Source: a virus
DNA: 38,740 nt
Strand: one strand, 5' to 3'
Virus record (IMG/VR): IMGVR_UViG_3300025872_000131
Span: 1-38,740 of that record
Shown: positions 2,756-38,740 of the stretch, piece by piece
Numbering within the stretch: position 1 is the stretch's first letter
Layout: each line of letters opens with the position of its first letter
Translations under genes and position numbers: made by a program
Notes under the pieces: model-generated
What the model was told of the DNA's origin: nothing
Database searches by the model: none
Seen by the model: the letters and a program-made list of their open reading frames with translations, nothing else

Positions 2756-2758
2756 ACA

Positions 2759-12135: not shown

Positions 12136-13554
12136 TTAAACAACTGCCCTCAAATTCCTTTTAATTGGCTTGCCCCACTGTGAGTTGTAAGCCTTCCCGT
12201 ACAACGCTGTTCCTGCATCGCTCGCAAAGGTCAACGCCAAAGCATCAGCCATATCAGGCGATCCAATCCCGCGCTTTCTCATCTCGTCTTTGCTCTCTAG
12301 CTTCATCTTCCCGTTGCTATTAAACGAATAGCGTGGCGAAACTAATTCCGCCAATAACGACTCATCCTTAGGTATCTTGCAATCGCGCTTTTCCAACCAC
12401 GCCTTCATCTTTCCCCATAGCTCAGCACGCAAATTCACATAAATCGTTCCCATGGCGGGAGACTCAGCCACGTTAATCCCACGCGCAGGCAGATTCAATT
12501 CGCGCAAGCGGTCCACAACGCCGGCCCCTAAGCCAATCGAATCGACAAGGATTTCAACGGGCCTGTCTTCTGGCTTCATGGCCTCGTACTCAGCGACCAC
12601 CGCGCCCGTGGTTTGCATCAAATCCAACCCTCGCCACTTGCGTATCTCAGTCACCGCATTACCTTTACGCTTTGCCAACGCCGTGGCGTCCGTCCCAAAT
12701 CGCGCTACATCCAAACCCCACACCGTTTGCGTGTCCGTCGTTTCAACATCACGGTGAAAAGCGCTGTCCACCAGCTCAACGCCAATCAAGGTATCGTCAT
12801 CGGTACGCGGAAACTCACCCAACACGCGAACACGGAAAGCGTTGGATTCTTCGCCATACCTTGACGCCATATCCTTGATATAGGCGTCGCTAACCCTTTT
12901 AGAGTCATAGCAGGACACGCGACGTGTCCACCACTCATCCTTCAATCGGTTATGCGTGTCAAAGAAAAACCCGCTGGACTTCGTTGGGTTACCCAACAAA
13001 ATCGTCACAGCGTTATGCCCCGACATGGAACCCGCCGCCGCCTCGAACACGGACTCAGGAATCCCTGATGCTTCATCCGCCACAAGCATCACATGGTCCG
13101 AATGCACACCCTGCAACGCTTCAGGTTGCTCGGCACGCGATGTACGGGCGGAGATGAACGACTCTTGAGGCGCCGCACGCATCTCAATGCGATCGGTCTT
13201 AACCTCCAAACGATCACCCCAAGCATTAGGCAACTCTTTCACCCAACGCTTTAGCTCGGCAAATAGGGCGTCGTACAACTGGCTCGAAGTCGGCGCAGTC
13301 ACCACAATCTTTGCAGGACCGCGCGTTAGCATGTACCAAATCATCGCCCAGGAAGCCACCGTGGACTTCCCAACACCGTGGCCGGAGCGCACGCTGATCT
13401 TGCGCTCGCCGCGGGATATGGCCTCCAAAAACTCCACTTGCCAAGGGTCAGGATCAACCCCCAACACTTCGCGCACAAACAACGGCGCGTTGGGCCTGTA
13501 GCGGCGCACCAGCTCAAGGTAGCGCTTAAATATTTCGTTATTAGGCGTGTTCAT
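12136..13554 (-). CDS. terL: Terminase large subunit
   Basis: The product has 472 residues, the usual size. Walker A is SGHGVGKST at about residues 57-65 and Walker B is MLVADEAS with D160/E161; LLGNPTKSSGFFF is a coupling motif region. The RNaseH-like nuclease domain has its three acidic sites in VWGLDVARFGTDATALAKRK, EILVDSIGLGAGVVDRLREL and a final D in GIGSPDMADALALTF. It pumps DNA into the procapsid through the portal and cuts concatemers. The ATG at 13552-13554 overlaps the recombinase end by 14 bases; a GTG five codons upstream would also be in frame but lacks an advantage. Confidence 0.95.
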   Translation of the reverse strand: MNTPNNEIFKRYLELVRRYRPNAPLFVREVLGVDPDPWQVEFLEAISRGERKISVRSGHGVGKSTVASWAMIWYMLTRGPAKIVVTAPTSSQLYDALFAELKRWVKELPNAWGDRLEVKTDRIEMRAAPQESFISARTSRAEQPEALQGVHSDHVMLVADEASGIPESVFEAAAGSMSGHNAVTILLGNPTKSSGFFFDTHNRLKDEWWTRRVSCYDSKRVSDAYIKDMASRYGEESNAFRVRVLGEFPRTDDDTLIGVELVDSAFHRDVETTDTQTVWGLDVARFGTDATALAKRKGNAVTEIRKWRGLDLMQTTGAVVAEYEAMKPEDRPVEILVDSIGLGAGVVDRLRELNLPARGINVAESPAMGTIYVNLRAELWGKMKAWLEKRDCKIPKDESLLAELVSPRYSFNSNGKMKLESKDEMRKRGIGSPDMADALALTFASDAGTALYGKAYNSQWGKPIKRNLRAVV

Positions 13555-14221
13555 AACTTGCCACCGCACGATGCACCAAGGTATGCGTCACCGCCATACC
13601 AAACTGATCCTTCACCATCTCAGCAATCTTGCGATAGCTCTTGCGCTCTTTGGCTTTGTCCGCCATAAACATCAAGATGGGATAGGTCGATTCATCCTTC
13701 ACAAGTTTGGCCGACTTGCCATCACCATCCTTACGAAACCCAAACGGCACATGACCGCCAACCCAACCACCGGCTTGCGCCTTACTCTTACGCCCATCAG
13801 CCATGCGCTCTGCAATCCTGCGTCGCTCAAGCCTAGCCACTGCCGCCATCAACGTAAAGAAAAACTCAGACCAGCTCGACCCATTGTTCACCGGGTCCGT
13901 ACCCAGGGCCAGCACAATCATCTTAACGCCTTGCTCCTTCCAAGCCTCGGCCATCGTTAACGCGTCAACCGTGTCACGAAACGCACGATCCAATTGCGTC
14001 ATAACCACCACATCACCTGGCTGAAGTACCGCCACTAAACGCGAACCCGCTTCACGCTTGGCAAGTTGCACGGAACCGCTCACACCTTCATCCGTAAACA
14101 CCTCGCCCACATCATCGCCGCGAATCAACGCCAATCCCTGAATCTTCCTAATCTGCTCGGCTAGCGACGTGTTGTCTATCTGCTCCTGCGTACTAACCCT
14201 TGCATAACCATAAACCGCCAT
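13541..14221 (-). CDS. Serine recombinase, resolvase/invertase size
   Basis: The product has 226 residues. The N-terminal catalytic domain starts MAVYGYARVSTQEQ with nucleophile Ser10; conserved arginines appear in MTQLDRAFRDTVDALTMAEA and ARLERRRIAERMADGR. The long E helix and a C-terminal helix-turn-helix (SYRKIAEMVKDQFGMAVTHT) follow. The length matches resolvases and invertases rather than large serine integrases. It could resolve genome multimers, invert a segment or act as a transposon-type recombinase. It sits, unusually, between terS and terL and overlaps terL. A dyad GTTAC-N11-GTAAC (14239-14259) just upstream may be its operator or site. No inverted-repeat segment is seen around the fibre gene in the window. 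Confidence 0.9.
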   Translation of the reverse strand: MAVYGYARVSTQEQIDNTSLAEQIRKIQGLALIRGDDVGEVFTDEGVSGSVQLAKREAGSRLVAVLQPGDVVVMTQLDRAFRDTVDALTMAEAWKEQGVKMIVLALGTDPVNNGSSWSEFFFTLMAAVARLERRRIAERMADGRKSKAQAGGWVGGHVPFGFRKDGDGKSAKLVKDESTYPILMFMADKAKERKSYRKIAEMVKDQFGMAVTHTLVHRAVASYEHA

Positions 14222-17562: not shown

Positions 17563-19634
17563 CAAAATCCTTCCTGATTAATCGGCTTGATCCACACCAA
17601 ATCGTTTCTTATGGCGGCAAACTCAAGCTCAACTAACTTGTCCTTCACCTCCTTCCAACGCTTCCGCTTATCGCTATCCTCTACATCATTCCCTAGCCTG
17701 GCGTACACCTCATCCCGCCAACGCTCTAACGTCACCACGCGATGGCGTTCCCCTTGAACGATCTGGTATTGCCCTTCCGTCTTCACGATATGGCGTAACG
17801 CTTCCCTACCCATCGATTGATGCTTACCGCGTCCTGCGTTCGGCTTTGCGTTTTGTGGCGGTCTAAAGCCAACGCCATCGGGTAATTCACCCTCGAATGG
17901 TTTGACTACAAGCGTATTGGCCGAGTCATCCTCAAACCCCAAGTTGAGCTTGGCGGCTGACGTTTCATGCGTTTCGTTCGTTTCCTGCTGATCAAAGTTC
18001 ACCGTTTCCATGGAGAAATGAATCTCCACACCATCCTTGCCATCCTTTTGCTTGGTTACACGCAACGTGCCCGACATTTGATCTGTATGGCGGGTAATCT
18101 CAATCTGCGTATCCACAGCACCTAAAAAGCTGGAGTGACCGCGTAGACCTAATGAGGCATCCTTGCCACTATGGTGGACAACGAGCAACGCTGCGCCCGT
18201 GGCTTCTTGCAGGCGTCCACAATTGCTGATGAAACTGCCCATGTCCTCGGACGCGTTCTCGTTGCCGCCGCCAAAGGCGCGGGCCAAGGTGTCAATGATG
18301 ATCAATTTCGGACGCTGGATTTCGGACGCTCGTATGGCGGCTATCAAGTCAGCAAAATCCTGATCCGATGACCTTAAGTTAACTTGCGACCTGATCACGC
18401 CAACGGGTATGTCCTTGAGTTCATACGCATGGCGTAAACCCGAAATCCTTGTCCCAATACCGCCATGGCCTTCACCCGCGATGTATAAGACTTCACCGGC
18501 TTGCGGCACTTCGTGCGCCAGCCACGAATCCCCACTGGCGATCATGGCGGCTAAGTGCAGCGCGATAAACGATTTGAACGTGCCTGGAGGCCCATAGAGC
18601 GCCATAAATCCCTTCTCCGGCACAATCCTATCCACCAACCACTTAACCGGCTCATCCTTCGCGTCACGCCACATCTCAACCCTGTAGCGTTGCGCTTCCT
18701 GCGCTTCAACCACTTCGGCAAACGGTTCCTTCTCAGGCACAACGGATTCGGGTTCCGTCTCGGCTTTCTCATCAATCACTAGTCGCTGTGGCGGCTCAAC
18801 GTCCTCAAAGTCCTCAACCACTTTGGCTTCGGCAATGCGCCTGGCGAACTCCTCAAACGTAAACCCTCGTCCGATAAACTCTTCAGCGTCATCGCCAATG
18901 GCTGACTCGTCATCGGCTAAATCAACCACCTTGATCGCTTGCGCTACACCCTGCAAGTCCCTAACGACACGTTTGGCGTACTTCCAACCAGGTCTATCGT
19001 TATCCGGCAGCACAACCACCAATCGACCATGAAACCATGGCGTTATGGCGGCAGGCCATTCGCTCGAACCCGCGTGCGCCGATATGGCGACCACATCGAA
19101 CATGCCAACCAAAAACTCAGCGGCCTTTTCGCCCTCGGTCACAAATACCGGCGCCATGGGTCTTGCAATCATGAGCGGTAAGCCAAACGGTATGGGCGTC
19201 CAATTGCGGATCGTTGGTACGCGCTCGCCATTGATAAGGTGATATTGGCGATAAGTCTTACCTCCACCTTCAACGTCATACCTGACCTTTTGCGCCGTGA
19301 CTTCACCGTTTTCATCGATGTAATCCCACGCCATCACTTCTTTCATCGTTGACGGAACTATCGGCCTGACACCCGATAAAGGATCACGCGCAACCAGCGG
19401 GCGGTTCCAGTTCAACGAATTAGGCAAGTGCGGTTTGATGGCGGCAAACACATCCTCTTGATCGCACCCGCCAAAGCACTTGAATAGAAACTTCTCACCG
19501 AGTTGCGTAATCGCAAGCGATGGATGCCGATCACCCTTGCCATTGCCATGCCCGGGTACCGGGCAAGACGCAAGCCACCCCCTCTTGTAGCGCTTGGCGT
19601 TACCAAGCGCTGCGGCTAATAGTTCTGCGTTCAT
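17562..19634 (-). CDS. Primase-helicase (zinc finger, TOPRIM, RepA-like AAA+/RecA ATPase)
   Basis: The product has 690 residues. Residues 20-60 form a CHC2-like zinc finger (C24, H29, C53, C57). A TOPRIM-type fold follows, with VFVTEGEK (E168) and VVVLPDNDRPGWKYAKRVV (D211, D213). A linker around 275-320 is acidic. The C-terminal ATPase of the RepA/AAA_25 group has Walker A GPPGTFKS (348-355), Walker B KLIIIDTLARAF (D448) and LLVVHHSGKDASLGLRGHSS. It would unwind DNA and prime replication. No DNA polymerase gene is visible, so host polymerase is presumably recruited. The stop overlaps the next ATG; ATGA overlap with NeuD-like gene upstream. Confidence 0.9.
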   Translation of the reverse strand: MNAELLAAALGNAKRYKRGWLASCPVPGHGNGKGDRHPSLAITQLGEKFLFKCFGGCDQEDVFAAIKPHLPNSLNWNRPLVARDPLSGVRPIVPSTMKEVMAWDYIDENGEVTAQKVRYDVEGGGKTYRQYHLINGERVPTIRNWTPIPFGLPLMIARPMAPVFVTEGEKAAEFLVGMFDVVAISAHAGSSEWPAAITPWFHGRLVVVLPDNDRPGWKYAKRVVRDLQGVAQAIKVVDLADDESAIGDDAEEFIGRGFTFEEFARRIAEAKVVEDFEDVEPPQRLVIDEKAETEPESVVPEKEPFAEVVEAQEAQRYRVEMWRDAKDEPVKWLVDRIVPEKGFMALYGPPGTFKSFIALHLAAMIASGDSWLAHEVPQAGEVLYIAGEGHGGIGTRISGLRHAYELKDIPVGVIRSQVNLRSSDQDFADLIAAIRASEIQRPKLIIIDTLARAFGGGNENASEDMGSFISNCGRLQEATGAALLVVHHSGKDASLGLRGHSSFLGAVDTQIEITRHTDQMSGTLRVTKQKDGKDGVEIHFSMETVNFDQQETNETHETSAAKLNLGFEDDSANTLVVKPFEGELPDGVGFRPPQNAKPNAGRGKHQSMGREALRHIVKTEGQYQIVQGERHRVVTLERWRDEVYARLGNDVEDSDKRKRWKEVKDKLVELEFAAIRNDLVWIKPINQEGF

Positions 19635-20287
19635 CTAGGCGCCGCCGGATTGCCTTGCAGCACAATGCCTTCGTGCACCGGACCTTTGAAGTCATGGCGG
19701 ACAATGGACCCTGCTGAAATCTTCACGCGATTGGCGATTTGCTTGCCTGGCAGTACATAGGACCCAATACCCATGATCACCGCCACGCCAATCACGCAAT
19801 CCCCGCACACTTCCGTATTCGGAAACATCGTTGTCCATGCGTGAATTACCGAGTCATGCCCAACCGTTGCATTGGTATTCATAAACACAAAATCGTTGAT
19901 CCAGGCATCCGCTGTAACGATCACTTGCGGTGCTAAAACGCATCCCTTACCAATCTTCGCGTATGGCGATACCGTACAAGTGCTGTGTATGTACGTTCCC
20001 CATCTTTCTTCGTTCTTAGCAACAATGGCTTGCTTTGCATCGGGGTCCGCCACAGCCAGCAGGAATTCAGCACCAGGAAACGCGCCCTCTCGAATGCTTT
20101 CCACCACGGGATACTTGGCGGCATAACGCTTATTGTTAAACGGTTGCGTTGAAACCACGCACACAATCTCGTGCGTGCCTTCTTCCTCGATGTAGCCAAT
20201 CAATTCCTTGGCAAGCCCTCCTGAACCAAAGATGACGTACTGGTTTTTGCGCTTTGCCTTTTGATACATATTGTGATCGCCGCTCAT
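19631..20287 (-). CDS. NeuD/PglD-like sugar O/N-acetyltransferase (left-handed beta-helix)
   Basis: The 218-residue protein begins with a Rossmann-like domain (NQYVIFGSGGLAKELIGYIE). It continues in hexapeptide repeats of a left-handed beta-helix (IGKGCVLAPQVIVTADAWIN, FMNTNATVGHDSVIH, CVIGVAVIMGIGSYVLPGKQ, ISAGSIVRHDF), ending LQGNPA as these enzymes do. The catalytic-type His is in NATVGHDSVI. Known members acetylate nucleotide-sugar amines or sialic acids. With the neighbouring aminotransferase and methyltransferase it suggests synthesis of a modified amino sugar. The start uses AAAGGGG upstream. Confidence 0.85.
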   Translation of the reverse strand: MSGDHNMYQKAKRKNQYVIFGSGGLAKELIGYIEEEGTHEIVCVVSTQPFNNKRYAAKYPVVESIREGAFPGAEFLLAVADPDAKQAIVAKNEERWGTYIHSTCTVSPYAKIGKGCVLAPQVIVTADAWINDFVFMNTNATVGHDSVIHAWTTMFPNTEVCGDCVIGVAVIMGIGSYVLPGKQIANRVKISAGSIVRHDFKGPVHEGIVLQGNPAAPR

Positions 20288-20338
20288 TGATTGCGCCCCT
20301 TTAACTTGATTCTTTCAGTCGTAGTCCTGTTACGATAT

Positions 20339-20731
20339 TTACCACTTGTTCTTCTCCTTTAACTTGGCTTCGATAGCTTCCGCAAAATCCAACACGTTCT
20401 GATGTGCATAGCAAATGTGAAACTCCACAGCACTGCCACTCGCTTTGTTGCATTTCCAGATTTCATCTGCGGTCAGACCAACCCATTCACGCCTTATGCG
20501 CTCTTCAATTTGCCACTCAAGCTCTTTCAGCAGGTCTTCAATGTTGTCGCCGTGTCCTGTAGCGTAGCCTTGTCGCATCATCCACTGCGCTACCTTCTCA
20601 CGCTCGGCAGCAGCGACAAGTGCGGCGAAGTATTCGTACCTTTTCGCTTTAATCTCAGCAACGTCTGCGTGTTGCCAATCAACTTTGAACCCAGCCTCCC
20701 GCGCCAGCTTGATGATGTCTTCTCTATCCAT
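20339..20731 (-). CDS. Conserved hypothetical phage protein (REWVGLT type)
   Basis: This 130-residue protein starts MDREDIIKLAREAGFKVDWQ, has ALVAAAEREKVAQWMMRQ in the middle, and carries RREWVGLTADEIWKC near residue 80. This type is common in phages and prophages of Burkholderiales, often as modular versions sharing the blocks MDREDIIxxAREAG and REWVGLTxxEI. The function is unknown. Its ATG overlaps the upstream gene by eight bases. The shared REWVGLT block with the next protein shows module duplication. Confidence 0.8.
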   Translation of the reverse strand: MDREDIIKLAREAGFKVDWQHADVAEIKAKRYEYFAALVAAAEREKVAQWMMRQGYATGHGDNIEDLLKELEWQIEERIRREWVGLTADEIWKCNKASGSAVEFHICYAHQNVLDFAEAIEAKLKEKNKW

Positions 20732-21041
20732 GATTCTTTTCCTTCAAGGCTTGCTCAACGGCGCGGTAAAAACCAAAACAATCAAACCAAGGTGAATTGC
20801 TTGCATCAATTTTTTGAGATAGATAAATCAAGTCATGGATTTCTTCATCCGTCAGACCAACCCATTCACGCTTTGGCGGTACCGTGTACACAGGTTGCGG
20901 GCTAAACACTTTGTCCTGTGGCTTTTTGCGAAAGTACACATGCCCGGTGCCAGTTGTGTGCATCCACGCCACAGGCTTTTGCTCTGTCTCCAGTAATTGG
21001 CAGCAATGCCCGCACCTTGGACATTCAAAGTCTTGATTCAT
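20724..21041 (-). CDS. Conserved hypothetical phage protein with CxxC-like N-terminus
   Basis: This 105-residue protein has FECPRCGHCCQLLETEQKPV at the start, which looks like a small zinc knuckle. It continues VAWMHTTGTGHVYFRKKPQD and KREWVGLTDEEIHDLIY. The KPVAWM and REWVGLTDEEI blocks are typical of accessory proteins in betaproteobacterial phages. The function is unknown. It is coupled upstream by ATGA with the methyltransferase and overlaps the next gene. Confidence 0.8.
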   Translation of the reverse strand: MNQDFECPRCGHCCQLLETEQKPVAWMHTTGTGHVYFRKKPQDKVFSPQPVYTVPPKREWVGLTDEEIHDLIYLSQKIDASNSPWFDCFGFYRAVEQALKEKNHG

Positions 21042-21673
21042 TGATCACCCCCTAAAAGTTTTTGGACAATAAAGCAATTGCCATCCGTAAATGATGGCTG
21101 GAAACCCCTAGCGCCTAACGTGTTTGGCAGCGTTCCATAAACACGGAAAGCAGACGGATTCAGTGCTTCACTAATATCGTTCACGGCTTGCTTTACCTCT
21201 GGCGAATACTTTTCATCGTTGTAATCATCAAAAACTATCCACCCGCCAGGCACTACAAGTTGGCTGTACATTTCCCAATCTTGCTTGACGCCATCACCCG
21301 TGTGATCACCGTCGATAAAAAGTACATCAACACTTAAATCGCTAACACGCTCAAATGTCTCTTTTTGGTGGGAATCGCCAAGTACATAACGAAAAGTGTT
21401 TTTATTGGGATTGTTCGCTTTGACGTTTGCCTCAACAACCGATTGCGGAATTGGAGCGCCAACATCAATACTGACTGCGTGCATCCGATCTTTTTGCAGC
21501 ATCAAAATCGCACTTGCCCCGGCATAGCAACCAATCTCCAAGTAAGTTGGTCGATGTACGCTAGGCAACGGCAAGTCATAAAGAATATGAAAATGATGAT
21601 GAAATGTTTGGTTTTCTATGCGATCAGAAATGCGCCTAACGATCTCTAAAGATTCAATCGTTGGCGTAATCAT
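21038..21673 (-). CDS. Class I SAM-dependent methyltransferase (Methyltransf_24-like)
   Basis: The product has 211 residues. Motif I is YLEIGCYAGASAI (residues 44-56). A motif with the SAM ribose-binding acid is in HAVSIDVGAPI, and VDVLFIDGDHTGDGVKQDWE followed by LVVPGGWIVFDDYN is characteristic of the Methyltransf_24/cephalosporin-hydroxylase-like group used on sugars and small molecules. It is bracketed by ATGA overlaps with the aminotransferase and the Cys protein. With its neighbours it probably modifies a sugar intermediate or a glycan; DNA methylation is unlikely because no DPPY/NPPY motif is present. Confidence 0.85.
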   Translation of the reverse strand: MITPTIESLEIVRRISDRIENQTFHHHFHILYDLPLPSVHRPTYLEIGCYAGASAILMLQKDRMHAVSIDVGAPIPQSVVEANVKANNPNKNTFRYVLGDSHQKETFERVSDLSVDVLFIDGDHTGDGVKQDWEMYSQLVVPGGWIVFDDYNDEKYSPEVKQAVNDISEALNPSAFRVYGTLPNTLGARGFQPSFTDGNCFIVQKLLGGDQ

Positions 21674-22311
21674 CGATCACTCCCAAACGCGTAAATCGGA
21701 AACTTGGACAAATCCGGATAGCTCATCTCAATGTCCTCCATCACCTTTGGCGAACCATCACGATGCCAGAATTGATTCATAAGCAATAAGCCACGCGCTG
21801 CTACATCAGGCATCATGTAAAAATTCCAGCCGATCATGTCGAAATGATCATCGTGATAGGAACACTCACGCCGCCCGCTGAAACGCGCACGCTTAAACCA
21901 CAGCATGGCGGCATAGTCATCAGTGAGAATCGCACCGCCCTTGCCCAGCTTTAAGTGCTTGTACGGTCCTGTAAACGACACGCACATATGCGAGCCTTTG
22001 ATGTACATATTGGAGGTAAACGACAGCGCAGCATCCCACACACGCGTCGGTGCAAGCTGATACGCGCCCTTAATCGTTCTTCCTTCAACCGGATAAAAGT
22101 CAACCTTTGCGCCGGCATGAATCACTTCGCAAGGCACGCCTGGATAAGTTCTTGCCGGTAGCCTGATCGTCGTTCCCGCCACACGTTCATAGGTCAACGC
22201 TAAGAACAAAGCGTTGCAGCAGTTATCTACCGCCACACAGTATGGTGCACCGGTGTACTCGGCAACCTTTTCTTCAAACGATTCCGTTATTTTGTAAACG
22301 CCATCTGCCAT
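21670..22311 (-). CDS. DegT/DnrJ/EryC1-like sugar aminotransferase (short form)
   Basis: The product has 213 residues against 360-400 for typical members. It keeps the PLP-binding core: YCVAVDNCCNALFLAL, RVWDAALSF (D93 for the pyridine nitrogen) and SFTGPYKHLKLGKGG with K118 as the probable Schiff-base lysine. A late FKRARFSGRREC segment resembles the substrate region. The C-terminal domain is largely missing. It would aminate a keto-sugar nucleotide, feeding the NeuD-like acetyltransferase. The shortness may mean a minimal phage version or loss of activity. It starts after the terminator at 22332-22360 with AAGGGGATGAC as ribosome site. Confidence 0.8.
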   Translation of the reverse strand: MADGVYKITESFEEKVAEYTGAPYCVAVDNCCNALFLALTYERVAGTTIRLPARTYPGVPCEVIHAGAKVDFYPVEGRTIKGAYQLAPTRVWDAALSFTSNMYIKGSHMCVSFTGPYKHLKLGKGGAILTDDYAAMLWFKRARFSGRRECSYHDDHFDMIGWNFYMMPDVAARGLLLMNQFWHRDGSPKVMEDIEMSYPDLSKFPIYAFGSDR

Positions 22312-24853: not shown

Positions 24854-25064
24854 CGAAACGCTCAATCACCCAAGTGCGCATCCACAATGGGCGCATGGTT
24901 TGTTTGGCGTGCCGCTCTTCAAGCCATGTCGTTGTCCTTGTTATGCCTCCAGGTGCAACCCAGTGATAGGGTTTGACGTAGTGCGGCACATAAGGCATAC
25001 CCTCCAACATGTATACTGGCATGGGATGCAATTCTGCTTTCTTGTCGCTGTTGTTGATGTTCAT
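24831..25064 (-). CDS. Small hypothetical protein (77 residues)
   Basis: The ATG at 25062-25064 overlaps the upstream glycosyltransferase stop as ATGA; an ATG four codons earlier is possible. The product reads MNINNSDKKAELHPMPVYML, then EGMPYVPHYVKPYHWVA and ends WVIERFVETTQDL. It is rich in Pro, Tyr, His and Trp. No family is recognised. Its 3' end overlaps the promoter of the next gene. Confidence 0.65.
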   Translation of the reverse strand: MNINNSDKKAELHPMPVYMLEGMPYVPHYVKPYHWVAPGGITRTTTWLEERHAKQTMRPLWMRTWVIERFVETTQDL

Positions 25065-25744
25065 TTGCCTTGCCATTTATCTAAGTAACGCTGCGCTGAT
25101 TCTTTCCACGTCGGACCCATCAAGCCTTGACTGTGATGGATGGCGGAAATCGATGACACATAAATTGACAAACCTTTCTCTGTGAATTGGCGGCAAATGT
25201 CCATGTCGTAATGATGAAAGGTGAATTGCTCATCAAACTTTATATCGTTGTCATGAAACGTCTTCGAGTAAGCCGCCATAAACAAACCGTCAATCAGAGA
25301 CACTTGACGATTAGGCGATGCAAACACATCCCAACTTGTCAAATACTCGCCGTTGCCACGCGCTACGCAACCGGCCCATGATTGGCGATCAGATAACGTG
25401 CCTTCCATGTCCGTGATGGCCCATGATGTTTGACCTGGTGATGGCTGACAGTTACCCGCCAATCCAACCAGGTGATGATCATCAAGTGACGCACCTAGAC
25501 GCATGTACCAATACCAGTCGACAATCTCAACGTCATCGTGCACAAATACGAGTAACGCCGGCTCGTTCTTGGCGGCTTCAATCGCTTCGTTATAGCGTTG
25601 GCACAATCCTGCCGTGTTGTTAGTGAACAGTTGCGCCTCAATAAATGACAGATGCGCAAAGCGTTGAATCGTTACGCCTAGCGGTGTTCCTGCAAAATCT
25701 TTTCTGTTATGGCGAGTACACGCCACAATCCTTATCGGTATCAT
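25061..25744 (-). CDS. Glycosyltransferase (Glyco_tranf_2_5-like)
   Basis: The 227-residue protein has PIRIVACTRHNRKDFAGTPL at the start, ALLVFVHDDVEIVDWYWYMR with an HDDV-type metal motif near residue 68, and VSLIDGLFMAAYSKTF followed by DEQFTFHHYDMDICRQFTEK near the C-terminus. This DG-FDE-H-x-YDxD arrangement is characteristic of Glyco_tranf_2_5. The sugar donor is unknown. It is coupled by ATGA overlaps to the preceding glycosyltransferase and to the small gene after it. Confidence 0.88.
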   Translation of the reverse strand: MIPIRIVACTRHNRKDFAGTPLGVTIQRFAHLSFIEAQLFTNNTAGLCQRYNEAIEAAKNEPALLVFVHDDVEIVDWYWYMRLGASLDDHHLVGLAGNCQPSPGQTSWAITDMEGTLSDRQSWAGCVARGNGEYLTSWDVFASPNRQVSLIDGLFMAAYSKTFHDNDIKFDEQFTFHHYDMDICRQFTEKGLSIYVSSISAIHHSQGLMGPTWKESAQRYLDKWQGK

Positions 25745-26403
25745 TCAATCCCCCATTGTTCTAAATAGTGCGGCCTATGCGATTTCATCCACGGCAATGA
25801 CTGTTGAAGATTCGATTGCATGTCAACGCCAATCGTCATTGATCCAACGTGGTGGATGTAGCTACGGCTAATCCAATGGCTAAAGCCAAGTGCCACAAGG
25901 TCAGCGCACATCACATCATCGCTAAACCAATTCAATGGCGGAAACGGTGCTTGCTCATACGCTAGACGCGGCAACCATGCAAACAAAGGCGATACCACTT
26001 TGTTCTTCTTGACCGCGCCCTCGCCCTTCCAACGCATACCAACAAACTGGTCCCTATCGTCTCGCGGTATGCGAATGTTTTGCGAAGGGCGCACATAGTC
26101 GGATCGCGCTGCAACGAGTCCCAACTTAGGGCCACACAATTTCTTTAACGCTTCAACATCTTCCATGAGCAATCGCAACGAGTAAGGCGCAAGCACAATG
26201 TCATCGTTGGCGATGATTACGCCATCGTCGTCCTTTGACATGAAACGCTCAATGGCCCTGTTGTAATCATCACCAAACGTTGGCCCTTTTCCGTTCTCAA
26301 TGCAAAGGTCAACTTCTGGCGCATAAGCATCAACGCTTGCCGCCAGTACGTGTAACGATCCCTTATCAGGCTTAATCGTTGACACGATCATTTTTATGCC
26401 CAT
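25741..26403 (-). CDS. Glycosyltransferase-like protein (GT-A fold)
   Basis: The product is about 220 residues; ATG 26403 (overlap ten bases) or ATG 26391 (just after the upstream stop, protein starting MIVSTIKPDKGSLHVLAASV) are both plausible, the second beginning at the core strand. It has KGPTFGDDYNRAIERFMS and a DD metal motif in DDDGVIIANDDIVLAPYSLR. Later text (PLNWFSDDVMCADLVALGF, SYIHHVGSMTIG) resembles the acceptor-side region of phage GT-A enzymes. It forms a tandem with the next glycosyltransferase. Confidence 0.8.
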   Translation of the reverse strand: MGIKMIVSTIKPDKGSLHVLAASVDAYAPEVDLCIENGKGPTFGDDYNRAIERFMSKDDDGVIIANDDIVLAPYSLRLLMEDVEALKKLCGPKLGLVAARSDYVRPSQNIRIPRDDRDQFVGMRWKGEGAVKKNKVVSPLFAWLPRLAYEQAPFPPLNWFSDDVMCADLVALGFSHWISRSYIHHVGSMTIGVDMQSNLQQSLPWMKSHRPHYLEQWGIE

Positions 26404-26690
26404 GCGCCAATCCTTTTGAGGCATTCCAATGCGCGGCGGCGAACAACGGAATCGTTAAAGCGTCCATAGCTTTCTAAACCTTTGAGCGTTTCAACACAAT
26501 CCGCCAGATTCTCTAGCGCAATGTTCAAACGCTTTTCAAGTTCGCCAACTTCCACGTTAGCTTTTGGTGTTCGTCCCTTTTTCGGTGCTATTGCCTCGAA
26601 ACCAAACGTATCGTCCGCCTGATGCTCTGAGTGGGCAGTCTCTTCCTTGATTACAGTACCCGTTGCAGCAATCGTTATTTTTTGTTCCAT
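26394..26690 (-). CDS. Small hypothetical protein (98 residues)
   Basis: The ATG at 26688-26690 follows AAAGGGATCGC and is preferred over a longer in-frame extension. The product reads MEQKITIAATGTVIKEETAH, has PKKGRTPKANVEVGELEKRL and a helical C-terminus (LADCVETLKGLESYGRF). No family is recognised. It lies just before the tandem glycosyltransferases. Confidence 0.65.
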   Translation of the reverse strand: MEQKITIAATGTVIKEETAHSEHQADDTFGFEAIAPKKGRTPKANVEVGELEKRLNIALENLADCVETLKGLESYGRFNDSVVRRRALECLKRIGAWA

Positions 26691-32440: not shown

Positions 32441-32816
32441 GATTCAACTCCTTGGACATGACAGTCCATTTCTCTTCATAACCTTCGTCCGCCAAAAACG
32501 TACGCAGCCAACCACGTCTTCCGGCAAGTGTCACACGATTGCATCCGATTGATTGCGCCCATCTCTCAAGGATTGGACGCATACGCGAGAGTTCTTCTAA
32601 GTCCCCGCCAGCAAGAAAATAGTGCATCCCTTTGGCTTGTGGGTAACTCTGAATCTCAGTGATGACAGCGGATTGTTGACCTGGCCAAAACTGCATTTCA
32701 TTGGCGTCAACGGCTCGCTTTATGTCCTCAATGGTATGTGTTCCGCCAGTGAAAGACAATGCCGCTTCAATAAATGGCCGGCATCGATCCCAGTGGCTTA
32801 AATCGTGTGCGTTCAC
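32433..32816 (-). CDS. Conserved phage protein of GNAT-like fold
   Basis: The product has 127 residues starting at GTG (32814-32816) in a GTGA overlap. Text: RPFIEAALSFTGGTHTIEDI, NEMQFWPGQQSAVITEIQSY, MHYFLAGGDLEELSRMRPIL, and GCNRVTLAGRRGWLRTFLAD. This recurrent podovirus protein beside ejection genes resembles a GNAT fold (LAGGDLEEL, GRRGW) although the acetyl-CoA loop is not obvious. Acetyl transfer or an accessory virion role is possible. Confidence 0.75.
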   Translation of the reverse strand: MNAHDLSHWDRCRPFIEAALSFTGGTHTIEDIKRAVDANEMQFWPGQQSAVITEIQSYPQAKGMHYFLAGGDLEELSRMRPILERWAQSIGCNRVTLAGRRGWLRTFLADEGYEEKWTVMSKELNHE

Positions 32817-34510
32817 TTGTACGCCAATAAGTTTTCGCCAGCCACTAACGGCAGAGTTCCTGATAGCAATCCTTGCACATAAGGCAATGAGGCACCTTGG
32901 TTTAAGGTGGAAAGGATTGAGCCTGTGACTTGTGGCGATAAATTAGACTTTTGCGCCTCAGCGCGTAAATCGTTGAATGTTGTACCCGTGTTGAGCAACC
33001 CTTGACCTGTGGCGGCTAACTGCTGCGCCGTTGGCGCTCCTTGCGGCATGGCGTAAAAGGATGCGGGCAATGTCACTTGATTGGCGGCAACGTATGGTGC
33101 AAGCAATCCAGCCGTTGGTGTACCACCATAAGATGCCGCATAAAAAGCATCCATGTAATTTTGAATCTGCTGACCCGTTGGGCCTTTGATGTTTGTGAGC
33201 AACCCTTGCTCTGGTCCGTACCCGTATTGCAACTGCGCCTGCGGAACAACGGCTTTGCCATAAGTTGCCGGCGGTAACGCTTGGTTAGCTTTATAAAAAG
33301 CATAGTCAGGCGTTGACATGAGGTAAGTTGTCAAGGCATCTGTTGACGTGAACGGCGTTGTGCCTTGCTGATAACCTCTAAAGTTTGCCAACTCTGTAGC
33401 ATTTGGCACGCGCCCAAACACGCTTTGAAAAACGGCTGATGCTTGCACGTCATTGATCGGTACGCCAGGTGCAGACGTAGGTGCCGGTGTTGGCGCAGGC
33501 GTTACTGTCGGTGTTGGTGTAGGTGCAGGCGTTACCGTTGGCGTTGGTGTTGTAGTTGGAGACGGTGTTGGAGCTGGTGTAGCTGTAGGTGCTGGTGTAC
33601 CAGTAGGTGCTGGCGTAACCGTCGGGGTTGGCGTTGGGGATGGTGTAGCTGTAGGCGTTGGCGTCGGTGCTGGTGTTACAAAGTTTGAAAGCAACCCTTT
33701 GACATAAGCATCATAGTCAGGCGTTGATTTCAGGTAATTGTAAAACGCCGTTTCTGATGACAATGCCGGGTTTTTATCGTTTAGTGCTATTTTGAAGTTG
33801 GCAATTTCTGCATCATTTGGGCGTCTGTCAAACAAACCCTCAAACACCAAACTTGCTTGCTCTAAAGTAATCATATTTCCACCCGTCAAAAGTCCGCCGC
33901 CACTTGGCGCTGAGGTTGGTGCCGGTGTTGTTGTAGGTGCCGGCGTTGTTGTAGGTACTGGCGTTGAGGTCGGTGCCGGCGTCGGCGTAGGTGCTGGCGT
34001 TGTGGTTGGTGCCGGCGTAGGCGCAGGCGTCGCAAACGTTATGTTGCCAAGGATTGCCTGCGCTTCATCAGCGGTTAGGCCAAGCGAATAAACGCCAAAG
34101 TTGTATAGATCGGTTGGCGTGTAGCCTTGATTGGCGCGAATTTGTGTTTGGTTAACAATGTCCTGAAACGAAAGTCCGTTGTAAGGCGTTCTTACTGGTT
34201 CATAGTACCCATAATCAGGTTCATTGACATCGGTAAAACCGGGCGATGTATCAAGCAATCCGCCACCTTGCACTGGTGCTGATGTAGGCGCTGGCGTTGG
34301 TGTAGGTTCTTGCGTTGAAACAGGTGCTGAAGTTGGCGCTGGCGTTGAAACAGGTGCTGATGTAGGTTCCGGTGTAGGTTGTCCGCCACTAATGTAAGAC
34401 AGCATATCGTCAAGCGTAATGCCATAGCTTGCCGCCAACTTAACAAAGTTGGGATCATTAGCGAGACCCCATGCAAAGTCTTCTGGCGATCCGTAAACAC
34501 TTAAGTCCAT
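32813..34510 (-). CDS. Virion-type protein with Pro/Thr-rich mucin-like linkers
   Basis: The 565-residue protein alternates short folded modules with long Pro/Thr/Ala linkers. Linkers lie around residues 47-80, 165-200 and 280-345, made of repeats such as PAPTSAPV, TPAPTPTP and TVTPAP. Modules of about 60 residues repeat a DUF4214-like pattern: ASLVFEGLFDRRPNDAEIAN with STPDYDAYVKGLL, and ASAVFQSVFGRVPNATELAN with STPDYAFYKANQ. The C-terminal 160 residues are globular. It lies between the nozzle and ejection genes, so it is probably part of the virion. The Thr-rich linkers resemble O-glycosylated regions. GVGVGAG frames on the other strand are shadows. Confidence 0.75.
   Translation of the reverse strand: MDLSVYGSPEDFAWGLANDPNFVKLAASYGITLDDMLSYISGGQPTPEPTSAPVSTPAPTSAPVSTQEPTPTPAPTSAPVQGGGLLDTSPGFTDVNEPDYGYYEPVRTPYNGLSFQDIVNQTQIRANQGYTPTDLYNFGVYSLGLTADEAQAILGNITFATPAPTPAPTTTPAPTPTPAPTSTPVPTTTPAPTTTPAPTSAPSGGGLLTGGNMITLEQASLVFEGLFDRRPNDAEIANFKIALNDKNPALSSETAFYNYLKSTPDYDAYVKGLLSNFVTPAPTPTPTATPSPTPTPTVTPAPTGTPAPTATPAPTPSPTTTPTPTVTPAPTPTPTVTPAPTPAPTSAPGVPINDVQASAVFQSVFGRVPNATELANFRGYQQGTTPFTSTDALTTYLMSTPDYAFYKANQALPPATYGKAVVPQAQLQYGYGPEQGLLTNIKGPTGQQIQNYMDAFYAASYGGTPTAGLLAPYVAANQVTLPASFYAMPQGAPTAQQLAATGQGLLNTGTTFNDLRAEAQKSNLSPQVTGSILSTLNQGASLPYVQGLLSGTLPLVAGENLLAYK
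33470..34030. repeat. Tandem short repeats coding for Pro/Thr linkers
   Basis: Two blocks (about 33470-33680 and 33905-34030) consist of degenerate 6- and 12-base units such as GGTGCTGGCGTT and GTTGGTGTAGGT. They encode PT/PA repeats on the minus strand. Such tracts can change length by slippage, so linker length may vary between isolates or be misassembled. Confidence 0.85.
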
Positions 34511-34517
34511 GGCTTGC

Positions 34518-34727
34518 TCACATCGTTGTGGCGCTCAACGCGCCAACATTGGAAACGGTTAAGTAGTAACGCGTCCCATTGGGCGAACGAATGACAAGTT
34601 TTTCATCTTGCCCAAGTTCAATATCAACGTTCTTTTTACGATTCAACGCGTCAGCCAATTCAAGCGCACGTCGCAGCGACAACTGGTCAGCCGTATCGTA
34701 TTCGAGCGTTGGGCGCTGAAGTTTCAT
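34518..34727 (-). CDS. Small hypothetical protein (69 residues)
   Basis: The protein reads MKLQRPTLEYDTADQLSLRR, then ALELADALNRKKNVDIEL and VIRSPNGTRYYLTVSNVG. An N-terminal helix and C-terminal beta hairpin are likely. ATG at 34725-34727 overlaps the nozzle stop as ATGA. No family is recognised. A small virion component is possible from the neighbours. Confidence 0.7.
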   Translation of the reverse strand: MKLQRPTLEYDTADQLSLRRALELADALNRKKNVDIELGQDEKLVIRSPNGTRYYLTVSNVGALSATTM

Positions 34728-36211
34728 CGTTTGCTACCCGATTGAGCATCAAAGCGCATAATGCCAACCCGCCAATCCGTATTGTTGTTACTTGTGACGC
34801 GTACCTTAACCTGGCGTCCCTGCAAGCGTACCGACGTTGGATTAGCAAGCGAATACGGCCCATACGTTGTTTCTGTTCCTGTTGGGTACAGGCGCGTTTT
34901 GAATGTTGCCGTTACATCGCCCAACGTTTTATCGTCAGGCACCAATTGACTTGCCACAAGCAAATTGTCGCCCATGCCAATCTCATACGGTCCCGATTCG
35001 GCATAAGGCGTTTCGCCATCGTAATCCCATCCAATTTCATGCTCGTAAATGTGACCATCTTGCGAACAAAGCATGGGGTATGGAAATACCGTTTGACCTG
35101 TACCAACCGTACGCGTTAGCGCACCAATTGACCAATGGTTCTCCCTGTAATTCCAAACAACATATGAATCAATCTCAATCGCCGCAAGCGATGGGTAAAA
35201 CCAAATGATTTCGCCAAACTTGGCATTGTGAATTGCAGCAACTTTAGATGACTGGATACGATTCAGATTAGAAAACACATAGTCGGAAACATCACTTGGT
35301 AGCGGTTTGGCGTAACCATCAAACAACCAAAATCCGCTCGCTCCCATCCACGCTGCAAACGTATCGGCAGCGGCAATACTCAATACGCCAACGGCACCGC
35401 AACCCGTCCCAACGCGCTCAAACCCGTACACATATGGCGGTCCTTGATACTGTGCAAAGTGAGCATCAACATCAGTAAGAATCAAGACGCCACCGCGCAC
35501 GCGGCGGGCGCAAACAATTGAGCCAGGCGTTGAAAGCGTAAAGTCACCCGCTTGATTGTTGGCGGCTGGCGTCCAAACCGTATTGTCTTCCTGGTCAGAC
35601 CATTGCACTTTTCTTGGATCGCCGCCAGCGCCAAGAGCAAACAGAAAACGCTCTTCAGAGACAATCAAACCCTTGCAACTCGTTGGCGCGTTCGTGATGG
35701 CAACGGCTTTGGTTGGCGTTGTAAAGTCAAGTTGCCACTCGTACAGCTTACCGTCGTAATCCGAACACGCCACAAGATACTGGCCCCAGTTATCCATCGA
35801 CCATGTTGTGGCGGGCTGAATAGCTAAGGTTGATTTGAATGATCTTGCAGTGCCGTAAGCCTCTTGTCCGTAATCTCTTCCGCCATACGATAAGTTAGGC
35901 GTGGCATCCGTTCGGCCAGCGCTAAAACTTGTTGGCGTAATGTCTGCGCGATCAGCATCGCCTTGATACGCGTAAAGTTTTGATGCCGTACCAACAGCAA
36001 GCCAAATATTGTTTGAGTTGTCCTTCCATGCGTGCATACCGCGAGGAACGCCTGACGTTGCTGAGGATGACCATTGCCGCCATCCGCCCATGGGTCTAAG
36101 CGTGCCTTCAAACCAACGCACAAGGTTGGCGTCATACCAACGGCCCTTCGATTGGTACTCAGTGCCGTTTCGGTAGACGCCTGGAGGAAGTTTGATAGGG
36201 ACGAGTGGCAT
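34724..36211 (-). CDS. Beta-propeller-like tail nozzle/stabilisation protein
   Basis: The 495-residue protein begins MPLVPIKLPPGVYRNGTEYQ and has RWYDANLVRWFEGTLRPMGG, HAWKDNSNNIWLAVGTASKL, WGQYLVACSDYDGKLYEWQL, and EERFLFALGAGGDPRKVQWS. Repeated Trp/Gly-rich beta-strands suggest a propeller. This type of protein is common in SU10- and P22-like podoviruses at the tail nozzle or head-closure position, connecting the adaptor to the needle. The family name is uncertain (P22 gp10-like is one option). It lies between lysozyme and small genes. Confidence 0.75.
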   Translation of the reverse strand: MPLVPIKLPPGVYRNGTEYQSKGRWYDANLVRWFEGTLRPMGGWRQWSSSATSGVPRGMHAWKDNSNNIWLAVGTASKLYAYQGDADRADITPTSFSAGRTDATPNLSYGGRDYGQEAYGTARSFKSTLAIQPATTWSMDNWGQYLVACSDYDGKLYEWQLDFTTPTKAVAITNAPTSCKGLIVSEERFLFALGAGGDPRKVQWSDQEDNTVWTPAANNQAGDFTLSTPGSIVCARRVRGGVLILTDVDAHFAQYQGPPYVYGFERVGTGCGAVGVLSIAAADTFAAWMGASGFWLFDGYAKPLPSDVSDYVFSNLNRIQSSKVAAIHNAKFGEIIWFYPSLAAIEIDSYVVWNYRENHWSIGALTRTVGTGQTVFPYPMLCSQDGHIYEHEIGWDYDGETPYAESGPYEIGMGDNLLVASQLVPDDKTLGDVTATFKTRLYPTGTETTYGPYSLANPTSVRLQGRQVKVRVTSNNNTDWRVGIMRFDAQSGSKR

Positions 36212-36212
36212 G

Positions 36213-36689
36213 TCAGTTGCTCATGTAAAGGGCCATTTCATCGCGGCGGCGTTTGACCAGGCCCGGCAACTCTTTCCCTGCCGCTTTAGTCCACATCTTA
36301 AACGCAACTGCTGCGCCCGTATAGTCGCCTCGATTATGGCGCATCCTTAACGTTGATCGCTGAAGGTTTCCTAACCCCACATTGAACGAAAAGCTGACGA
36401 GTGCATCAAGGCGAGGCTGAGTAAGACCAGCAGGACATAATCGTGATACGCCAGCTTCAAAGCGTTGTAAGTCCTTTGTAAGTATGTCGTCAATTTCCGC
36501 CATCGATAACGTGCGATCCCAACCCGGTGGGATGGGTAAGGCTTTACGCTCTTCAACTTTGACGTTGATGTGCGATGGGTCAATGACATGGCCAACACCC
36601 ACGGTCCAAAGCAACGCGGGGCAGCGATACGGCCGCGCACGCACACCTTCGTGATGCTTGATCATTTGTAGGGCAAGCGGACTGATCAT
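36213..36689 (-). CDS. Endolysin (GH24 lysozyme)
   Basis: The product has 158 residues from the ATG at 36687-36689, which forms an ATGA overlap with the holin stop; a longer in-frame start is rejected. The GH24 catalytic triad spacing E-8-C-5-T is present: HHEGVRARPYRCPALLWT (E14, C23, T29), followed by VGVGHVID. The Asp of T4 lysozyme is replaced by Cys, as in some phage 21-type endolysins. LDALVSFSFNVGLGNLQRST and RRRDEMALYMSN fit the family C-terminus. It cleaves peptidoglycan for host release. No signal sequence is evident, so release depends on the holin. Confidence 0.92.
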   Translation of the reverse strand: MISPLALQMIKHHEGVRARPYRCPALLWTVGVGHVIDPSHINVKVEERKALPIPPGWDRTLSMAEIDDILTKDLQRFEAGVSRLCPAGLTQPRLDALVSFSFNVGLGNLQRSTLRMRHNRGDYTGAAVAFKMWTKAAGKELPGLVKRRRDEMALYMSN

Positions 36690-37168
36690 TTCGCAAAGGC
36701 TCGTGACCCAAAGTGAAAGGCCACAATCGCGGCCCAAATCTGCTGCGTATCGTCATCCCATAGCTGATCAAGCATCAAATCGAATGGCACATTGGTTGTC
36801 CACGCGTACCAGAATCCGCCAATCTCAACGAATACCAACAGCATGAACATGCCATAGGTCAACACAGGACGCACCAACGCTCTGGCGTTCTTGACCCACT
36901 GGCTTGTTCCTTCGCCAATTGCAATATCATGCGCATACAGCGCTTTCATTTCTTCGGCTTGCGTTTGCATTGCCACTTGCTCGGTGTGAATCTCTTCAAT
37001 GCGTTGCTGCGCAAGCAATCCCATGGCGGCTAACTCACGCTCACGTTCATTTTGCATACGGGCAAGTTCCAGCTCGTGCGCCTTATCCTTGGAGTCCTGC
37101 CAAAGGTCAAGCAACTTGGGCACGCCACCGGCTAAGAATGACAGGAGCGTCGATAAAAGCGTCATCAT
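36686..37168 (-). CDS. Holin (3TM GTA_holin-like)
   Basis: The 160-residue protein has an N-terminal hydrophobic stretch (LLSTLLSFLAGGVPKLLDLW), a long amphipathic coiled coil (ELELARMQNERERELAAMGL), and two close transmembrane helices in the C-terminal half (PVLTYGMFMLLVFVEIGGFW and the AAIVAFHFGSRAF end). This is the arrangement of the 3TM holin family (PF11351 type). It directly precedes the endolysin with ATGA overlap. A second ATG is in frame one codon later. Confidence 0.85.
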   Translation of the reverse strand: MMTLLSTLLSFLAGGVPKLLDLWQDSKDKAHELELARMQNERERELAAMGLLAQQRIEEIHTEQVAMQTQAEEMKALYAHDIAIGEGTSQWVKNARALVRPVLTYGMFMLLVFVEIGGFWYAWTTNVPFDLMLDQLWDDDTQQIWAAIVAFHFGSRAFAK

Positions 37169-37169
37169 G

Positions 37170-37355
37170 CTAGGCTGACCCTTGGCACTTTTCGTTCAAC
37201 TCGTTCACCTTTTCCCATAGTGCTGTGATTTGTTTGTCGTAATTCTTTTCAAGATAATCAAGGCGCACTTTGATCGTTACCGCATAAGCCGCAATGGCAA
37301 CCACTGCTGCACCCAAGTACCACAGTTTGCCGATTGCGTCGGTTATTGCTTCCAT
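37170..37355 (-). CDS. Small membrane protein of the lysis cassette (61 residues)
   Basis: The protein has one N-terminal transmembrane helix (WYLGAAVVAIAAYAVTIKV) and a short coiled coil (DYLEKNYDKQITALWEKVNE) ending NEKCQGSA. This resembles a spanin-like or auxiliary holin architecture, with the coil either in the cytoplasm or periplasm. Its place upstream of the holin supports a lysis role. The exact function is not determined. Confidence 0.72.
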   Translation of the reverse strand: MEAITDAIGKLWYLGAAVVAIAAYAVTIKVRLDYLEKNYDKQITALWEKVNELNEKCQGSA

Positions 37356-37379
37356 GGAGGCGTATGGCTTGCTGAATGC

Positions 37380-37550
37380 TTATTTCAACTTCAGCGCTAA
37401 ATTCAAAAGCAAAATGATGATGGTGCCCGCCGTGGTCATAAGGATCATCTCCAATCTTTTGAGCCTGGCGTTGATTTGCGAATAGCGTTCGTCGCACACT
37501 GCTTCGTGAACTTCAATGCGTTTTAAGGCTTCGGAGTCGGCTGAAGTCAT
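37380..37550 (-). CDS. Small coiled-coil, C-terminally anchored membrane protein (XhlA-like)
   Basis: This 56-residue gene is below usual cut-offs. It reads MTSADSEALKRIEVHEAVCD, then ERYSQINARLKRLEMILM and a transmembrane end TTAGTIIILLLNLALKLK. A ribosome site AAAGGTG lies eight bases upstream. Charged coil followed by a C-terminal helix is the XhlA type of lysis-associated protein. It fits the lysis cassette. A rival ATG at 37554 runs into an early stop. Confidence 0.7.
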   Translation of the reverse strand: MTSADSEALKRIEVHEAVCDERYSQINARLKRLEMILMTTAGTIIILLLNLALKLK

Positions 37551-37559
37551 ACATCACCT

Positions 37560-37700
37560 TTATTGCTCGTCTTTCGGAATTTGCGCCTCAGCCTGCTCCT
37601 TGATCTTCACAATCAAAGGCCACACGCCTGTCTTTGCCGGTAGATCACCAAGCACGTTGAGGATAAATTGGATTTCGTTTTGGTCGAGGTTCAAGTTCAT
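37560..37700 (-). CDS. Small conserved phage protein (46 residues, LPxK type)
   Basis: The product reads MNLNLDQNEIQFILNVLGDL, then PAKTGVWPLIVKIKEQAEAQ. The pattern NLxxxExxxILxxLGxLPxKxxxxLIxKIxxQ is a widespread tiny phage protein. The function is unknown. The ATG overlaps the stop of the 24-codon frame upstream as ATGA, and the stop is ten bases before the XhlA-like start. Confidence 0.8.
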   Translation of the reverse strand: MNLNLDQNEIQFILNVLGDLPAKTGVWPLIVKIKEQAEAQIPKDEQ

Positions 37701-37771
37701 AGCCAAGGCAATGGTGGTTTAGTGATTGGTGGGTTCTTGCTTGTTTCGATTTGGGCTAGGTTTAGGTTCAT
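37697..37771 (-). CDS. Possible 24-residue leader, partial duplicate of next gene
   Basis: The ATG at 37769-37771 overlaps the fibre stop (ATGA), and the stop overlaps the next ATG (ATGA). The product is MNLNLAQIETSKNPPITKPP ending LPWL. Its first nine residues resemble the start of the 46-residue protein (MNLNLDQNEI). It may be a decayed duplicate or serve as a translational relay between fibre and next gene. Confidence 0.45.
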   Translation of the reverse strand: MNLNLAQIETSKNPPITKPPLPWL

Positions 37772-38740
37772 TGAGCCTCCAATGCTGCAACCTTTGCTTC
37801 TAGCTGTTCGATGCGTTGATTTTGACGCTTCACAATGTCAAGCAGCATCACCGTCAAGCGATCATACTGAACACCGTCTGGAGCAAGTTGAGCATCTGCT
37901 TTTAACTTACGCTCAGACTTTGTTTCGGTTTCCGTATAGGTTTCTGTTTCCGTAACGGCAGGCTCAACAACATTGCCTTCGTCATCTAAAACCGCTGGCG
38001 TTACTTTAACTTCACGGGTCTTTTCAATCTCTGTCTGAGTCTCAATTGTTTCAAATTGATCTTCGGGGTATGACCAGTGAACAAGCCTTGGTTCAACCTG
38101 AGCGACTTCTTCGGCAATTAAACCGTACCATGACCAATCTTTGCGGTCAGCCTCAGCTTTGGAGCGATACCATACAGGACGCAAGTTAAGAACGGCATCG
38201 GCTTTAGCGTGGTCAAGCGTTTCAACATCTGTCTTATAACGCAGCGACGATGTTGATCTCAGCAATTGATTTGCTGGTGTTGATCCGTTATTAAGATAAG
38301 CATTCGCAGCCGAGGCTGTTGTTCCAACGCTTGGGAAATAAACTTCACCCCCGCTGCCGATACGGGCGCGTTCGGTGCTAGCGGTTGCGTCAAAGAACCC
38401 AAGTCCTCCACCGCCTGTCGTTGTATAGGTAATAAACGAACTCTGACCAGACGAGCCGGACAGAGAAAGCTGTGCAAAGCCGCTAGACGAGCTGATCGTA
38501 GATGTAATGTTCCCTGCGCCAGTGACAACCAGTTTTGTACCCGGCGAAGTCGTCCCAATCCCCACGTTGCCGGAAGCATTTACAACAAAAGGCGAAGAGT
38601 CAGGATTGGTCTCATCTTCAACAAGCAAAGCATTGCCTGTGCCGGTTTGTGTAATCCGTAAGGCATCGCCACTGGACGAACCAGAGATAACGACCCCAGG
38701 TTGAACAGTGCCTGTCAACGTAATCGTGTCTGTGGTTGCA
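37768..38740 (-). CDS. Tail fibre C-terminus with S74 intramolecular chaperone (5' end at window edge)
   Basis: The frame enters at the right edge and stops at 37768. It encodes shaft modules (GNVGIGTTSP, TSTISSSSGFAQLSLSGSSG) and then an S74 chaperone: SLRYKTDVETLDHAKADAVL, RPVWYRSKAEADRKDWSWYG, LIAEEVAQVEPRLVHW and a C-terminal coiled coil (RLTVMLLDIVKRQNQRIEQL). The S74 domain assists trimer folding and is released by self-cleavage. Joined at 38740 to 887, the fibre is a continuous 436-residue protein ending here. A TTG at 38718 is not a true start. The insertion VTPAVLDDEGNVVEPAVTET before the coil is unusual in this region. Confidence 0.88.
   Translation of the reverse strand, partial: ATTDTITLTGTVQPGVVISGSSSGDALRITQTGTGNALLVEDETNPDSSPFVVNASGNVGIGTTSPGTKLVVTGAGNITSTISSSSGFAQLSLSGSSGQSSFITYTTTGGGGLGFFDATASTERARIGSGGEVYFPSVGTTASAANAYLNNGSTPANQLLRSTSSLRYKTDVETLDHAKADAVLNLRPVWYRSKAEADRKDWSWYGLIAEEVAQVEPRLVHWSYPEDQFETIETQTEIEKTREVKVTPAVLDDEGNVVEPAVTETETYTETETKSERKLKADAQLAPDGVQYDRLTVMLLDIVKRQNQRIEQLEAKVAALEAQ
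38614..38740. repeat. 127-bp exact repeat, copy 2 (window right end)
   Basis: This stretch is identical to 760-886 and lies flush with the end of the window. Immediately left of it (38613) the two copies diverge. Frames match: codon boundaries in the fibre ORF coincide with those of the left copy. It is the probable circularisation overlap. Confidence 0.9.

Follow-up and report, generated by a model that had tools for sequence, protein, structure and literature searches.

Results

Fibre gene parts and other features of the window

The window, i.e. the whole stretch of 38,740 bp deposited as IMGVR_UViG_3300025872_000131, carries parts of tail fibre genes at both of its ends, all of them on the minus strand. 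At the left end, positions 887–1224 (338 nt) encode an N-terminal part that begins with MADTTTTN and falls into class 1 of our fibre comparison, and positions 1–759 encode a distal fibre tip (tip B). At the right end, positions 37768–38740 encode the gene's own distal part (tip A), which contains a Peptidase_S74 (PF13884) chaperone domain (Pfam E-value 4.9e-8, 33.6 bits with a cut-off of 22). The phage to which the class-1 N-terminus and tip A belong is referred to as phage A; it is podophage-like with an SU10-type portal, and for positions 1–24000 no match to a named phage at near identity was found.

Several other genes were noted on the minus strand. A small serine recombinase (13541–14221; Resolvase, PHROG integrase/invertase families) overlaps the start of the terminase gene with its last bases and has homologues at 40–45% identity in seven of the eight relatives searched. 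In the structural region a 565-aa protein (32813–34510) with long proline-threonine-alanine repeat tracts accounts for 18 of the 19 copies of repeat family D1. Genes at 3383–4096, 10316–11266, 19631–22311 and 25061–26424 look, by eye alone, like sugar-handling genes of the glycosyltransferase, acetyltransferase, methyltransferase and aminotransferase types, which would be many for a 38-kb phage. The capsid gene gave one host lead, a relative among 18 stretches that lies on a Rhodospirillaceae MAG contig; at 46% identity it is too distant to name a host.

A 127-bp repeat at the right end recurs inside the left fibre part

The initial annotation had pointed to an exact 127-bp match of 38614–38740 to 760–886, flush with the right end of the window, and our sequence comparison bears this out. 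Both copies of this repeat, termed repeat V, lie on the minus strand within open frames (1–1224 and 37768–38739), and on the tip side the first base beyond the repeat differs (A at 759, C at 38613). Two contigs from another assembly, L006 and L084, also end at repeat V. The pair is the sole exact direct repeat of at least 25 bp in the window, all 103 directly repeated 25-mers belonging to it with an offset of 37,854, and the window contains no exact inverted repeat of 20 bp, so that repeat V is not a chance match. Weaker homology extends it to 198 bp (689–886 versus 38543–38740, 94% identity), the 12 mismatches between the extended copies involving all four bases.

Three known ways of varying a fibre were rejected. 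The search for the reverse transcriptase (PF00078) of a diversity-generating retroelement gave none (0 of 1), and the mismatches between the two copies are, as stated, not confined to particular bases. For an invertible segment of the Mu G type convincing inverted repeats flanking the alternative tips are missing: none was detected in 1–1300 and only three imperfect pairs of 12–15 nt in 37300–38740, and between the two fibre regions inverted repeats were tested at 20 nt or more only. Finally, the serine recombinase was set aside as a tip switch, though not disproved as one, since it lies beside the terminase, seven of the eight relatives searched have a homologue although their tips differ, and a second copy of tip B was not found in 887–38740.

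Identical sequence near both ends might also represent a physical direct terminal repeat of the phage genome. The left copy, however, begins at 760 instead of 1, both copies are located inside a coding frame, and in the relatives L007, L020 and L051 the corresponding place lies well inside the contig, so that we regard a terminal repeat as barely credible.

An exact overlap of an odd and plausible k-mer length that ends at 38740 and has two continuations on its far side (759 versus 38613) is what a branch point in a de Bruijn graph leaves behind. Both continuations are present in other contigs, one in L004 and the other in L005 and L084 (see below). Together with the path simulation described further down, these observations support the earlier proposal of a branch at k=127, although the use of this k by the assembler is something we infer.

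The earlier argument from the reading frame was reproduced as well: joining 38740 to 887 yields 1311 nt, i.e. 437 codons including the stop, and joining 38740 to 1 breaks the frame. It carries less weight than had been assumed. The translations show that the reading frame through repeat V does not differ between its two copies, so that any join through it keeps the frame and in-frame closure is to be expected, making it weak evidence by itself.

Positions 887–38740 very probably represent a complete genome

Stronger evidence for closure comes from related contigs. L005 (IMG/VR 3300025732_001528, 4351 bp) matches 3950–689 and 38740–37454 of the window without a break at 99.2% identity. It is thus contiguous across 887 and 38740, demonstrating that the closure sequence occurs in nature. 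The protein obtained by joining 37768–38740 to 887–1224 (436 aa) is found whole in L005, with one changed residue noticed near its end. The best explanation is that the true fibre of phage A has 436 residues and consists of the class-1 N-terminus, repeat V and tip A with its S74 chaperone domain.

We also asked how often the two ends of the window adjoin in one contig, requiring sequence from both 887–3500 and 34701–38100. Among the best 80 of 206 loci, with the repeat fetches L086 and L162–L165 excluded, 35 carry both ends in one contig. All 35 are collinear on a single strand, with 641–3126 bases between the two ends; the remaining 45 fell below the threshold of this both-sides test. A second set of loci comprised the best 80 of 82. 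Moreover, the fibre gene lies well inside the contigs of L007 (37,225 bp) and L020 (36,734 bp). Since L005 carries the joined gene unbroken and 35 of the 80 loci are collinear at both ends, 887–38740 very probably represents, as judged from sequence, a complete genome of 37,854 bp that assembles as a circle and closes at repeat V. The proposal of the initial annotation that this segment is the likely circular genome is thereby supported.

Tip B is identical to the fibre of another phage

The key to the remaining 759 bp is L004 (3300025635_000656, 7246 bp), which is 100% identical to positions 1–894 of the window, then shows mismatches at 895 and 910 and ceases to align at 923. In L004 tip B is complete as far as a stop codon and is preceded by another N-terminal part; its fibre aligns with tip A around repeat V only, over 65 residues. 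The two fibre genes consequently share exactly 135 bp (760–894) and differ on both sides, and within these 135 bp the window switches from one to the other.

The fibre of L004 is itself a patchwork (1–2704 of L004) of an L085-like start, an L058-like middle and the tip present in window 1–894. Its start is cut off; the first 70 residues are 97% identical to L085, the start of which differs from class 1, and residues 62–277 are 98% identical to L058, whose fibre begins with an Mtd_N domain. Since start and middle match two such different fibres, the non-class-1 fibres are, by these alignments, mosaics of at least two starts.

Beyond the fibre, L004 codes for a metallophosphoesterase, a GH108 endolysin, a GTA-type holin and a YqaJ exonuclease, and 4 kb downstream are 93.5% identical to L085. 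When 37 window proteins were compared with L004, a relative turned up for the two fibre halves only; a 46-aa ORF outside these 37 is the other item common to both. The best capsid PHROG is 21712 for L085, 267 for L058 and 1328 for phage A. L058 and L089 do have some affinity to phage A: a portal piece of L058 weakly matches the portal family of phage A (PHROG 1216, E 1.4e-11), and two further proteins of L089 have counterparts in the window, over stretches of 55 and 75 residues. The assignment of L004 to a phage different from phage A, here called phage B, appears well supported by these comparisons. A piece of 7 kb does not justify calling the two unrelated; capsid and terminase genes are not among the sequence seen of these 7,246 bp.

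Fibre tips are probably exchanged between different phages within recurring edges

Class-1 fibres have a common first part, beyond which they diverge. The comparison comprised 51 rows, counting one contig twice (L007 and L086) and including one misread start (L037); 39 of the fibres are complete, and they have 22 distinct strings of 40 C-terminal residues, which is an upper bound as near-identical strings are included. Even where the backbones are at least 99% identical (2369–3382 in L005, L013 and L032) there are three different fibre ends. Conversely, the S74 end of tip A recurs at 95–97% DNA identity in L085, L087 and L089, contigs that depart from phage A in fibre start or neighbouring genes; for L085 and L089 the capsid PHROG is also a different one. 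Near-identical tips are therefore found on different backbones, as expected for tip exchange between different phages; tip B of the window, being possibly part of a chimera, was not counted here.

On the proximal side the exchange is bounded by a 64-bp linker (860–923, minus strand) that is common to class-1 and other fibre genes, as seen in the L004 alignment and in the locus search, where it was found over at least 40 nt in 30 loci, repeat fetches included. The distal boundary of the shared segment is the 46-aa ORF (37560–37700, minus strand) directly downstream of the fibre gene. It has no match in Pfam or PHROG at E 0.001 and is kept in non-class-1 phages, with 93% amino acid identity over 45 residues in six such loci (L004, L057, L058, L085, L087 and L089). 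The ORF seems to travel with the fibre tips. Between it and the fibre gene lies a 24-residue ORF (37697–37771, minus strand), the last 20 residues of which match the C-terminal end of a 101-aa protein of L004 at 90%; judged by this match, it is apparently a remnant left by exchange. It is plausible that the linker and the 46-aa ORF, as recurring flanks, offer footholds for homologous recombination so that the tips may move as a unit.

The window is best described as a spur joined to a closed loop

The repeat, the joined gene of L005, the identity of 1–894 to L004 and the sum of spur and loop lengths are direct observations. The explanation that we judge probable as a whole is that the window is a path through a de Bruijn graph, composed of a spur (1–759) outside the 37,854-bp genome and a closed loop (887–38740). 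The spur would be part of the fibre tip of an L004-like phage B present together with phage A. As the 135 bp shared by the two fibre genes exceed k=127, the assembler would have been unable to pair tips with N-termini and would have run the tip of phage B into the N-terminus of phage A. This presupposes that phage B was in the sample of the window at low coverage, that the N-terminal side of its fibre was absent from the graph, and that there was no phage A genome with tip B. The shared 135 bp themselves may have arisen by fibre-tip exchange through recombination at the conserved flanks.

We simulated the unbranched paths expected for a phage A circle and a tip B spur at k=127. The spur of 886 and the loop edge of 37,981 minus the overlap of 127 add up to 38,740, precisely the length of the window. 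At base 1, where L004 continues, the spur breaks off within the gene, as a branch of low coverage would. The two contigs ending in repeat V provide a further check. L006 and L084 (sample 3300006641) are 100% identical to the window over 7,990 and 10,963 bp and end at 760 and 38733, respectively. These are the ends predicted by the spur model with 120-base nodes, a node size deduced from the 120-base overlap, the assembler of these contigs not being known. If all of phage B is placed in the graph, the N-terminal edge of phage A would end at 768 (k=127) or 775 (120-base nodes). The window passes through 760–775 and cannot discriminate, and L006, being 100% identical to it, possibly stems from the same reads.

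The same loop ends would result at k=127 if the fibre of phage A were longer and duplicated internally, an alternative already named in the initial annotation, with the order N-terminus, repeat V, tip B, an unassembled part X, repeat V and tip A, and many class-1 relatives do exceed 436 aa, reaching up to 841 aa. Yet L005, at 99.2% identity, has the short gene with a single repeat V, and tip B in L004 reaches its stop codon without tip A. With 120-base nodes and random filler for X the duplication predicts that L006 ends at 767, not at the observed 760. We consider this arrangement very improbable.

The spur model fits two situations, an assembly chimera lacking the N-terminal branch of phage B and a real hybrid, in which part of the phage A population has tip B on the class-1 N-terminus after recombining with phage B within the 135 bp common to both. 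The end of L006 at 760, as if a single N-terminus met repeat V, speaks for the hybrid; a chimera requires that the N-terminal branch of phage B was lost while its tip survived. L004, moreover, comes from another assembly (3300025635), so that the presence of phage B in the sample of the window is something we infer. Tip replacement is common, as the three fibre ends on near-identical backbones illustrate, and the similarity of relatives to the class-1 gene breaks off at 856 (L032), 855 (L013), 855 (L026) and 884 (L014), within the stretch where the window switches. On the other hand, no contig besides the window joins class 1 to tip B, although very near records possibly lay outside the searches and this absence is not strong. 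A 26-mer of tip B retrieved three contigs: L004 with the whole tip on its other N-terminus, and L057 and L058, which share only 1–206 and have other sequence upstream. A 38-mer of repeat V retrieved four: L004 (tip B, other N-terminus), L005 (class 1, tip A), and L006 and L084, which end in the repeat and are uninformative. The lack of any difference from L004 over 894 bp would also require a very recent event. A hybrid is thus possible but doubtful. Rather unlikely, in our estimation, is the further-reaching scenario of a live exchange, in which a subpopulation of phage A has just taken the tip of a phage of another lineage via the 135 bp, the tip forming a mobile cassette bounded by the 64-bp linker and the 46-residue ORF and host recognition being traded as a plug-in unit.

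Because no other contig combines class 1 with tip B, the match to L004 shows no difference and the branch comes to an end within a gene, we favour the chimera, which we take to be about twice as likely as the hybrid or better. The spur-plus-loop assembly, with tip B of a different phage mis-joined to phage A, probably accounts for the window. The initial annotation had interpreted 1–759 as a second version of the distal fibre from a sibling strain or a rearranged subpopulation. That the segment encodes an alternative distal tip holds; a sibling strain is not its best explanation, as L004 has 1–894 together with another fibre start and other neighbouring genes, those for lysis among them, and, by the sequence comparisons, a mis-join to the fibre of another phage appears likelier than a rearranged subpopulation.

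Discussion

Taken at face value, the record describes a contig of 38,740 bp whose fibre is a truncated hybrid. Read as spur plus loop it becomes a probably complete genome of 37,854 bp with the correct receptor-binding protein, and a host prediction based on the tip at 1–759 would probably concern a different phage. Further complete phage genomes may be concealed by this branch geometry in contigs that break within fibre genes. A tip shared across lineages within fixed, conserved edges fits known tail-fibre mosaicism and provides a defined unit of exchange whose occurrences in metagenomes can be counted.

The assembly behaviour has a parallel in the passages on COBRA in PMC10914622, according to which end overlaps of maxK length in de Bruijn assemblies suggest joins and COBRA can neither fix nor detect assembly chimeras. 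The window likewise has an exact overlap of k length flush with a contig end, in a stretch common to different genomes or variants. In contrast to the overlaps treated in those passages, the sequence that pairs with the right end is internal to the window's own contig (760–886). Because the contig consists of spur plus loop and the partner is internal, an end-to-end comparison would miss this overlap.

The fibre itself resembles fibres with an endosialidase-type S74 intramolecular chaperone in that tip A contains PF13884. The eight best of 58 phage records match at 37–39% identity over 58–59% of the query; all eight are Escherichia phages, and some of the proteins are annotated as S74 or tail fibre proteins. 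The rest of the phage A fibre, in contrast, is unmatched in those records.

Tail-fibre exchange is of an already known kind, of which the system described here is another instance. The part of PMC10579305 concerned with the Alteromonas phages A5, V22 and P24 reports that these distantly related phages share tail fibre and chaperone modules, and here, too, a host-recognition module is common to otherwise different phages. Compared with what is reported there, the unit found here is the tip part of one gene plus a small ORF, with the 64-bp linker and the 46-aa ORF as its edges, and it occurs in uncultured phages.
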